Positions 30,053 through 32,262 of a stretch of DNA of 64,000 nt are shown one piece after another. Source of the DNA: Bacteroidota bacterium (GTDB taxonomy: Bacteria; Bacteroidota; Bacteroidia; NS11-12g; UBA955); contig CAUJCT010000001.1 in the NCBI GenBank assembly GCA_963169345.1, forward strand, positions 37,253 through 101,252, in the 5' to 3' direction. Each line of letters opens with the position of its first letter. The stretch's first letter is position 1. The position numbers and the translations under genes were made by a program. The notes below the pieces were generated by a model. The model was not told the origin of the DNA. It was given only the letters and a program-made list of their open reading frames with translations, and ran no database searches.

Positions 30053-30082
30053 AAAATAGCCCGCATTGGTAGCGGGCTATAG
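30053..30082 (-). terminator. Terminator of small membrane-protein cassette A
   Basis: TAGCCCGC-attggta-GCGGGCTA with T-run on the minus strand. Confidence 0.75.
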
Positions 30083-30156
30083 TCTCTAGTGTTTGTGTAT
30101 TTGTGTATTTGTGTGTGTGTCTAAATTGAGTTGTGTGTGTAAAAGGTGAAGACGGT

Positions 30157-30363
30157 TTATTCACTAGCTATATCCATCGAGCATACCTTATAGTTATAGT
30201 CGTCTTTCATCTGCTTAATTTCATGATTGGAAGCTTGCATTTCATTGAGCAGGAAAAACGTTAGAATGAGCAATGCGATAATTGACTTAAGCATAAGGAT
30301 TTCTGTAAAATAGTAGCTCCTTTTTGCTGGTTTTGTGTTGGTGGTTGAGGCGGCAGTATTCAT
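30157..30363 (-). CDS. Small single-TM protein (cassette A)
   Basis: 68 aa with one TM (LKSIIALLILTFFLLNEM), own promoter and terminator. Confidence 0.55.
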   Translation of the reverse strand: MNTAASTTNTKPAKRSYYFTEILMLKSIIALLILTFFLLNEMQASNHEIKQMKDDYNYKVCSMDIASE

Positions 30364-30400
30364 ATTATATTTATTTTTTTTAAGTTCTTTTTTTGTAAGT

Positions 30401-30458
30401 TTTTCTACCTAAGGTGTATTAATACTTAAATTGTTTTAACTTGCTATACCCAAATATA
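30401..30458 (-). promoter_or_regulatory. Promoter and 5'UTR palindrome of cassette A
   Basis: Minus strand: TATATTTG (30458-30451), GGTATAG, 18 nt, GTATTAATAC (30425-30416), ACCTTAGGTAGAAAA. Confidence 0.65.
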
Positions 30459-30630
30459 AAAAACCCTTTAAATAAAAATTCATTTTGAGAAAAAAATGCG
30501 ATAATTTTTCCTATATTATTGATATTCAGCTATATTAATTTATTATCACATGTGTCATTTTGCTATAAAATGTTAAAGGGGGGATACCAATGATTGCCAA
30601 TAAGGAGTCCAAAATGCTGTATAAACTAAA

Positions 30631-30667
30631 AAACGACACCTGTATTTTAAACAAGTGTCGTTTTTGT
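30631..30667. terminator. Terminator downstream of SRPBCC gene
   Basis: AAACGACACCTGT-attttaa-ACAAGTGTCGTTT. Confidence 0.8.
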
Positions 30668-30681
30668 AAAATTAAATACGT

Positions 30682-31179
30682 TTAAATCTGAGTTAATAGC
30701 TCATCAAGATTTTCGAGAGCAGCAGTGAATCCTTCCTTGAATCCCATTTCAATGATTTGATTCAAAGTTTCTTCAGAAGGATAAACGACTTTAACATGAA
30801 CTATGGTTTGTTGACCACTTTCCTCGAACGAATTGTGCCAGTCGTGCATAGGCATTTCCTTATTAAAGACGCCATTTTCATCGCAGAAACCATCCAGGCC
30901 GGCGTAACTTGATTTAGGTTGTATGTCTGTAAACTCATTTTTACACCAAAATAACTCCCCATTAGGACCTTTCATTGCGTAGAGCCAATGACCTCCAACT
31001 TTGAAGTCCATAGATATTGTTTCTGTTTTGAAAGGCTTTGGCGCCCACCACTGATCGAGTAATTCAGGATTTGTCCAGGCTTCCCAAACTGTTTCGATTG
31101 GGGCATTGAAAGAGCGATTAACTCTGATTTCCTTGTTTTCTTTGTCGACAATAAAGTCGAATAATAATGCATTGTTCAT
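30682..31179 (-). CDS. SRPBCC/AHSA1 family protein
   Basis: RSFNAPIETVWEAWTNPELLDQWWAPKPF. Confidence 0.92.
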   Translation of the reverse strand: MNNALLFDFIVDKENKEIRVNRSFNAPIETVWEAWTNPELLDQWWAPKPFKTETISMDFKVGGHWLYAMKGPNGELFWCKNEFTDIQPKSSYAGLDGFCDENGVFNKEMPMHDWHNSFEESGQQTIVHVKVVYPSEETLNQIIEMGFKEGFTAALENLDELLTQI

Positions 31180-31526
31180 TTTTTTGAATTGTTTTTAATT
31201 TGATTTAATAAGGTATCCAATTGATTAAAGCGTGTCTCCCAGATTTTTCTGAACTGTTCGAGCCACTTGTCTATTTGTTTCATTTTTTCTATTTCTAATA
31301 TATAGTGTATTTCTCTGCCTTTATGTTCTGCCTTAACCAGTTCGCACTCACTTAAAATACCGATGTGTTTTGAAACTGCCTGTCGTGAAATATCAAAATG
31401 TTCGGCTAAGGCATTTGGAGTCATTGCCTGAAGAGCTATCATACTTAATATAGCCCGGCGGGTTGGATCTGCTATTGCCTGGAATATATCTCTCCTCGGT
31501 TGTTTTTCTTTTATGGCTTTACTCAT
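31176..31526 (-). CDS. ArsR family HTH transcriptional regulator
   Basis: IADPTRRAILSMI; LAEHFDISRQAVSKHIGILSECELV. Confidence 0.93.
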   Translation of the reverse strand: MSKAIKEKQPRRDIFQAIADPTRRAILSMIALQAMTPNALAEHFDISRQAVSKHIGILSECELVKAEHKGREIHYILEIEKMKQIDKWLEQFRKIWETRFNQLDTLLNQIKNNSKK

Positions 31527-31530
31527 ATAT

Positions 31531-31572
31531 GCAACTTTATGGTTGCAAATATATATGCAACTTTTTAGTTGC
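31531..31572. promoter_or_regulatory. Two tandem GCAAC-N6-GTTGC palindromes, putative ArsR autoregulatory operator
   Basis: GCAACTTTATGGTTGC (31531-31546) and GCAACTTTTTAGTTGC (31557-31572), 26 bp apart, directly upstream of the regulator start. Confidence 0.7.
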
Positions 31573-31851
31573 GCAAATTATTTTTGATATTTTTTTTGAC
31601 ATCCTATAAATAGAACTCGATAAGTTAATCCAGAGTTTATTTTACTATAAAAACAAGTTATTAAAATTAAATGGGATTAAAAACTAATTTCAAGCAGAAA
31701 ATTTAGTTTAATTTTGAGAAAACAGATTTTAACTCGTGTCTTTAAGCGAATAAATAAGCTTTGTTTTTAATTTTTTCTATCTGAAAATCTGAAAGATATA
31801 AATCTTTTGAAATTTTTTTGAGAAAATTTAGTTCACAGAAATTCTACTTTC

Positions 31852-31908
31852 TATATTTGGGTATAGGCGTATTGAAAAAACTGAGTATTAATACATTTTA
31901 GGTAAAAA
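31852..31908 (+). promoter_or_regulatory. Promoter and 5'UTR palindrome of cassette B
   Basis: TATATTTG (31852-31859), GGTATAG, 18 nt, GTATTAATAC (31885-31894), ATTTTAGGTAAAAA; same layout and spacing as cassette A. Confidence 0.65.
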
Positions 31909-31945
31909 ATCTCAATCAATACCCTGAAAAAAACACATACACAAA

Positions 31946-32173
31946 ATGGAAATGAGACATATTACAAACTTCAGTTCGGCTCGCGGTTTAGAGCTACCAA
32001 AACAAGGTGAGTTCAATGTGATGCCAACTGAATTTTTAACACACATACATCAACGTAGCGTTCAGTCGCACAAACCGTTCCTTATCTCAGCGGCAGCAGC
32101 CGACAGAATAGTAAAGGGCATTGCCGTTGCTTCACTGTTCTGCGCATTATTCCTGATAGGATTAAATGCCTGA
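31946..32173 (+). CDS. Small single-TM protein (cassette B)
   Basis: 75 aa with C-terminal TM (IVKGIAVASLFCALFLIGLNA), own promoter and terminator. Confidence 0.55.
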   Translation: MEMRHITNFSSARGLELPKQGEFNVMPTEFLTHIHQRSVQSHKPFLISAAAADRIVKGIAVASLFCALFLIGLNA

Positions 32174-32228
32174 GATAGGAATTTACAACACAGCACACAC
32201 ACACAAATACAAATACACAAACTCTAGA

Positions 32229-32262
32229 GATTATAGCCCGTCAAAAAACGGGCTATTTTTAT
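32229..32262 (+). terminator. Terminator of cassette B
   Basis: ATAGCCCGT-caaaaa-ACGGGCTAT followed by TTTT. Confidence 0.8.

Follow-up and report, generated by a model that had tools for sequence, protein, structure and literature searches.

Cassettes A and B, two small-gene units pointing apart with 1.4 kb between them, were found to share a 33-bp double-palindrome site. In related uncultured freshwater bacteria, dozens of genes for surface proteins have the same site in front of them, and this suggests a common, so far undescribed regulator acting on the cell surface. We consider it likely that A and B belong to a conserved regulon, in which a DNA operator downstream of the promoter would be bound by a two-dimer repressor and surface genes would be switched on jointly. 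The element, its position, the symmetry of its half-sites, its spacing and the set of genes behind it were observed directly, in the window (the whole stretch of DNA analysed, 64,000 nucleotides of a Bacteroidota bacterium), in the rest of its genome and in its relatives.

Both cassettes consisted of a −7 box, an 18-nt gap, a 5′ element, a small ORF, a 3′ block and a terminator (Table 1). The 15-mer TATATTTGGGTATAG was located at 30458-30444 (minus) in A and at 31852-31866 (plus) in B, and these were its only exact matches in the window. Exactly 18 nt after it came GTATTAATAC (30425-30416 in A, 31885-31894 in B), followed by ACCTTAGGTAGAAAA in A and ATTTTAGGTAAAAAA in B. In whole-genome searches, the A and B leaders were aligned over 65 nt with 75-79% identity (E 1.3e-6 for the B leader against the A leader), and the 3′ blocks matched at 89% over 47 nt (E 5.4e-15). 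The preliminary description of these twin cassettes was accurate in every detail checked, including the positions, the 18-nt gap, the palindrome, the 3′ block and the terminators. Between A and B lay an AHSA1-domain gene and an ArsR-type regulator gene. In the genomes G003 and G015, A and B were arranged head to head without these two genes, which therefore have the appearance of a later insertion. In addition, a hairpin of 15 bp was observed at 30629-30665.

Table 1. Positions of the cassette features in the window and of related features elsewhere (C, contig; G, genome; L, locus).
Feature	Position	Strand	Remarks
Cassette A	30458-30053	minus	small membrane-protein ORF with shared flanks
−7 promoter box of A, TATATTTG	30451-30458	minus	fits TAnnTTTG; then conserved GGTATAG, 30450-30444
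Putative operator of A, TAAGTATTAATACACCTTAGGTAGAAAAACTTA	30396-30428	minus	model match 50.8 bits; position-weight matrix score 37.1; tandem 16-bp palindromes 30428-30413 and 30411-30396 (half-site analysis)
ORF A, 68 aa	30157-30363	minus	one TM helix, about residues 22-40
3′ block of A, ACACACACAAATACACAAATACACAAAC...TATAGCCCG	30073-30119	minus	common to B, 89%
Intrinsic terminator of A	30056-30080	minus	9-bp stem and T tail
AHSA1-domain and ArsR-type genes	30682-31526		ArsR-type gene, 31176-31526
Cassette B	31852-32262	plus	small membrane-protein ORF with shared flanks
−7 promoter box of B, TATATTTG	31852-31859	plus	then conserved GGTATAG, 31860-31866
Putative operator of B, TGAGTATTAATACATTTTAGGTAAAAAATCTCA	31882-31914	plus	model match 50.5 bits; tandem 16-bp palindromes 31882-31897 and 31899-31914 (half-site analysis)
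ORF B, 75 aa	31946-32173	plus	TM helix at C-terminal end, about residues 55-73
3′ block of B	32194-32240	plus	common to A
Intrinsic terminator of B	32233-32256	plus	9-bp stem and T tail
Sites in the window's genome besides A and B	C36; C19; C9; C53; C21; C18; C16; C55		PorG-like gene; T9SS protein; 29-aa peptide; large secreted protein; WcaJ-type gene; two adhesins; large secreted protein of the L142/L143 family; 172-aa protein (weak, 14.7 bits; gene family has good sites elsewhere)
D peptides, 29-30 aa	L074:2564-2653; L129; L132; L137; L138		one hydrophobic helix
F peptides, 36 aa	L085; L086; L087; L096; L097		one hydrophobic helix; A-rich leader of roughly 270-310 nt
C-type 3′ arrays	L179:1280-1550 (G000:C19); L181:550-1250 (G011:C40); L182:560-960 (G010:C39); L180 (G009:C164); L183/L184 (G013)

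The products of the two ORFs were compared by hhalign, and the profile-profile probability was 0.3%. The proteins are non-homologous, in agreement with the lack of similarity first reported for them, and the possibility that A and B are paralogues was rejected on this value. The dN/dS values were 0.07-0.13 for the ORF A family and 0.10-0.11 for the ORF B family, which shows that purifying selection acts strongly on each ORF. It had been suggested, as one option, that the coding inserts diverge rapidly. This was not supported, A and B being members of separate families with a dN/dS of about 0.1 in each. The family of ORF A was found in this genus only, and neither ORF matched a Pfam, PHROGs or NCBIfam family.

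The site was defined from 60 unique scored sites, which include those used to build the position-weight matrix. Its consensus over 33 positions, in a gapless alignment, was TRRGTA-W4-TACYYA-N-TRRGTA-W4-WACYYA. When the four half-sites were tallied separately, each gave the identical consensus TRRGTA, and dyad symmetry with equal half-sites is a property of operators. The palindrome GTATTAATAC, regarded at first as the unit, turned out to cover only the inner positions of the first palindrome in a tandem pair, each 16 bp long, and the TTAGGTA behind it includes the first half-site of the second. From one palindrome to the other the distance is 17 bp, which is not an integral number of helical turns, and two bound dimers would thus face different sides of the helix. 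In the literature search, no description of the site was found, and TRRGTA with a 17-bp period matched no named operator.

The A/B form of the leader was present in two copies only in the 3.63-Mb genome, even when two mismatches were allowed. Diverged copies of the 5′ element occurred at nine or so other places, giving about eleven sites in total. The first model, built from eight sequences, found more diverged copies, and every strong match lay within the genus. With the second, sequence-only model of 40 sequences, strong matches were obtained in 13 of the 17 genomes of the genus, although neither site nor genome counts are independent: the sequences share a common ancestry, and arguments from numbers are weaker for it. 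The genomes G001, G002, G005 and G016 contained no strong sites at all. Moreover, the best site within the genus scored 58.6 bits, and nothing comparable was found in 395 genomes of the class, where the best match had 25.4 bits (G241) and the others at most about 22 bits. The G241 match (L140, C80:34304-34374, another family) was preceded by TATATTTG and followed by an FAD-type oxygenase-like ORF. It may reflect chance, or a comparable site that has come into use independently. In the simulated control, 0 sites above 14 bits were obtained in 541 kb on both strands. The E-values of the models were rough and looked too optimistic, the model being structure-free and the DNA AT-rich; the conclusions therefore rest on bit scores, the simulated control and orthologous placement. 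The relatives that could be named were MAGs, and several of the genomes were incomplete. The many further copies of the 5′ element bore out the proposal of a shared regulatory system. Furthermore, the site stood before unrelated genes and was kept at orthologues across species, as is characteristic of the operator of a regulon.

A TAnnTTTG −7 box was located upstream of nearly every site. The boxes of A and B fit this Bacteroidetes consensus, as had been noted, and accordingly the palindrome would lie within the transcribed leader, in agreement with the original proposal. In flavobacteria (Flavobacterium psychrophilum), the TAnnTTTG box spans −12 to −5 (PMC9723704), which places the site at about +18 to +50. 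The spacer between box and site was 20, 21 or 22 nt in 47 sites and 12 or 13 nt in 4, and spacers of 14-19 nt were not found. Such a constant or helically phased distance from the promoter is a further property of operators. The spacing step of 9-10 nt is about one helical turn, which fits the need of a DNA-bound protein to face RNA polymerase. Some sites without an exact box had, by eye, a near-consensus TAnnATTG that fits a spacing of 21 or 12 nt. In addition, a −33 TTG was found 18-21 nt upstream of the −7 box in 24 of 47 sites, compared with 5.8 expected; A and B themselves were without a clear one. Directly after the −7 box, the GTATAAG start region was strongly conserved, but it was missing in the inspected members of the 12-nt class. 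This region looks like a further half-site overlapping the −7 box. The promoters of the A/B type would be ordinary sigma-A-type promoters with TAnnTTTG.

Many of the genes behind the site encode surface components. T9SS-sorted surface proteins were recognized by TIGR04183 or PF18962 above cut-off in six proteins. The PorG-like barrel protein scored 74.5 bits with NF052316, below the cut-off of 130, and was above cut-off with DUF6089; in G011, G010 and G008, the site precedes a DUF6089 protein of 297-298 aa. The PorG-like gene was present in 17 of 17 genomes (in G009 as a distant homologue only), and its gene order was identical wherever inspected. It carried the site in 12 genomes and lacked it in G001, G002, G005 and G016. 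In a tree of the PorG-like gene, which gave no resolved order of gain or loss of the site, two of the four genomes lacking the operator were missing because of the sequence filter. Other genes with the site encode a WcaJ-type undecaprenyl-phosphate glucose phosphotransferase, which is an EPS-initiating glycosyltransferase (TIGR03023 above cut-off), and a 7TM-PAS histidine kinase in four species (L190, L191, L192, L193), followed in G004 and G012 by a receiver-type protein. The site was also found at the gene of an H1-histone-like protein, about 105 aa long and rich in lysine and alanine, in G009 (L076:2624-2941) and G013 (L079).

Six families of small proteins were found behind the site: A (49-75 aa), B (69-75 aa), C (74-82 aa), D (29-30 aa), E (40 aa) and F (36 aa). 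Five of the six possess one hydrophobic helix. The dN/dS of A-F was 0.03-0.19 wherever dS was measurable, indicating purifying selection, and no known protein family was accepted for any of them. Family C was also found as the N-terminal part of longer T9SS proteins: the C-type N-terminus (QTKEGFIKSMILFIVLLGICFAPFFAFS) starts T9SS-sorted proteins of 210-550 aa (L089:2649-3281, L113:932-2584, L122), as if it were one signal segment common to different cargo. The family E peptide, which is basic and conserved, has about 40 aa (MENTRMTYKLTNLSTRNRKISAKLEKL.., L090, L100, L102, L114), and its genes have a conserved ACTAAAA-rich 3′ sequence.

Based on these features, A and B would be transcribed from a normal sigma-A-type promoter (TAnnTTTG). 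The candidate DNA operator at about +18 to +50, with two tandem 16-bp palindromes and four TRRGTA half-sites, would be occupied by a putative transcription factor, probably as two dimers. Judging from its position alone, the bound factor would most likely repress by blocking initiation or early elongation. A repressor site is the best reading because the element lies just downstream of an otherwise normal promoter. Relief of repression would then lead to the joint switch-on of A-F, the T9SS surface proteins, the PorG-like protein, the EPS glycosyltransferase and the histidine kinase. We infer protein binding, the repressor nature of the protein and its physiological role; judging by the genes concerned, the protein may control surface structure or biofilm state. 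No regulator gene was found beside the sites, and no site was found upstream of any transcription factor gene. The ArsR-type gene was rejected as the general regulator, since G003 and G015 lack it in the interval from A to B.

It is improbable that the site serves an activator, a nucleoid protein or an anti-silencer instead of a repressor. The H1-like protein gene is itself in the gene set, and the conserved GTATAAG start region might also agree with such a role. However, activators seldom bind solely at +18 to +50, and the good −7 boxes, often with a −33 TTG, should make an activator needless.

Another possibility, to which we give an equally small chance, is that the 5′ element acts as RNA, as a leader hairpin controlling mRNA stability or translation. 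As a part of the transcript, the element can form a hairpin of 33 nt (outer stem TRRGT/ACYYA, inner WTAC/GTAW), and in B and in the B of G003, TGAG..CTCA replaces the TAAG..CTTA found elsewhere, which is a compensatory change. The hairpin as the functional form was suggested by two to eight sequences, but did not hold with 40: pair cells were formed at 78.7% compared with 78.3% in shuffles, no covariation beyond column composition was found in the 40 sequences, and A-C mispairs were about as frequent as independent columns predict. Furthermore, the minimum energies were weak (−3 to −9 kcal/mol), and the step between spacings of 12-13 and 20-22 nt has no obvious RNA meaning. The symmetry is real, yet as read from these sequences it is not visibly maintained as RNA pairing. 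A DNA operator is preferred to an RNA element because covariation was lacking in 40 sequences and the spacing fits helix phasing. No RNA-family match was obtained in the A/B region at the curated gathering score. The idea that the UTRs are the functional unit was right in that the 5′ regulatory element is shared; RNA structure in the 5′ part did not stand up to the covariation check, and the 3′ blocks could act as RNA.

It is very improbable that the flanks of A and B represent a duplicated cassette with a replaced ORF and without shared regulation. A and B do have common 5′ and 3′ flanks in one genome, and their 3′ block is private to the A/B pair in G000. However, a large number of other, unrelated genes in the genus have the element in front of them, and it is retained at A and B even where a species has the two in another arrangement. 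Duplication is largely refuted for the 5′ element, and it may account for the common 3′ block. Just as remote is an invertible-promoter (phase variation) system with the palindromes as recombination sites. In its favour, the sites are inverted repeats placed between the promoter and genes for surface proteins, and the copy in A has the opposite orientation to that in B. Against it, loci typically have a single site with no pair flanking the promoter, the central bases differ among sites, and promoter distances are fixed and phased.

Conserved sequences were also found at the 3′ ends. A block ACACACAAATACAC leading into a TAGCC..GGCTA terminator was present behind A in all seven species and behind B in G000, G003 and G015, and a looser version was seen behind B in G010 and G011. 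C and D have conserved 3′ modules different from the A/B block. Behind C-type N-termini, the modules were present in two to four copies in G000, G009, G010, G011 and G013. The unit of these tandem arrays was 100-160 bp, comprising AGATATNAAGTG..GATATTCATAGTGCGTTTGTTGATTTTCA and its own terminator in each copy. No promoter was seen by eye within the arrays, and comparison of the arrays with Rfam gave nothing at E≤0.5. The conserved 3′ blocks could be regulatory RNAs or sites for an RNA-binding protein. A two-layer unit, in which the shared operator sets transcription and the 3′ module is a regulatory RNA or the target of an RNA-binding protein, is conceivable, but we regard it as rather doubtful.

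Repressor operators with two adjacent palindromes downstream of a sigma-A promoter occur with the controller proteins of restriction-modification systems and with ArgR boxes. The present site is similar in that palindromes of a dimeric half-site are neighbours near the transcription start, but it differs in its TRRGTA half-site, its 17-bp period and its restriction to one genus. PorXY/SigP regulons control T9SS and surface genes in Bacteroidetes. Likewise, T9SS cargo and a PorG-like protein are among the targets here, whereas an ordinary TAnnTTTG promoter and a separate downstream site are used. D (29-30 aa) and F (36 aa) resemble type I toxins and small single-TM peptides in size and hydrophobicity only; unlike type I toxins, they have the same operator as large surface-protein genes, and A and B are longer. 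The surface polysaccharide loci of Bacteroides have invertible promoters, also with inverted repeats between promoter and surface-structure genes. In our sites, by contrast, there was mostly one site per gene, the spacing was phased, and no partner repeat lay across the promoter.

An odd pair of look-alike UTRs has led to a regulon of uncultured freshwater Bacteroidota that is defined and can be searched for. As a caution, an apparently conserved RNA hairpin, drawn from few copies, behaved as paired DNA half-sites once 40 were compared. The precise putative binding site could serve to fish for the regulator. The regulon joins T9SS cargo, a PorG-like protein, exopolysaccharide initiation, a sensor kinase and unannotated proteins of 29-75 aa, and the small unannotated proteins gain a first context. 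If the units do have two layers, tiny membrane proteins and 3′-UTR RNAs would be made together as a programme of surface control.
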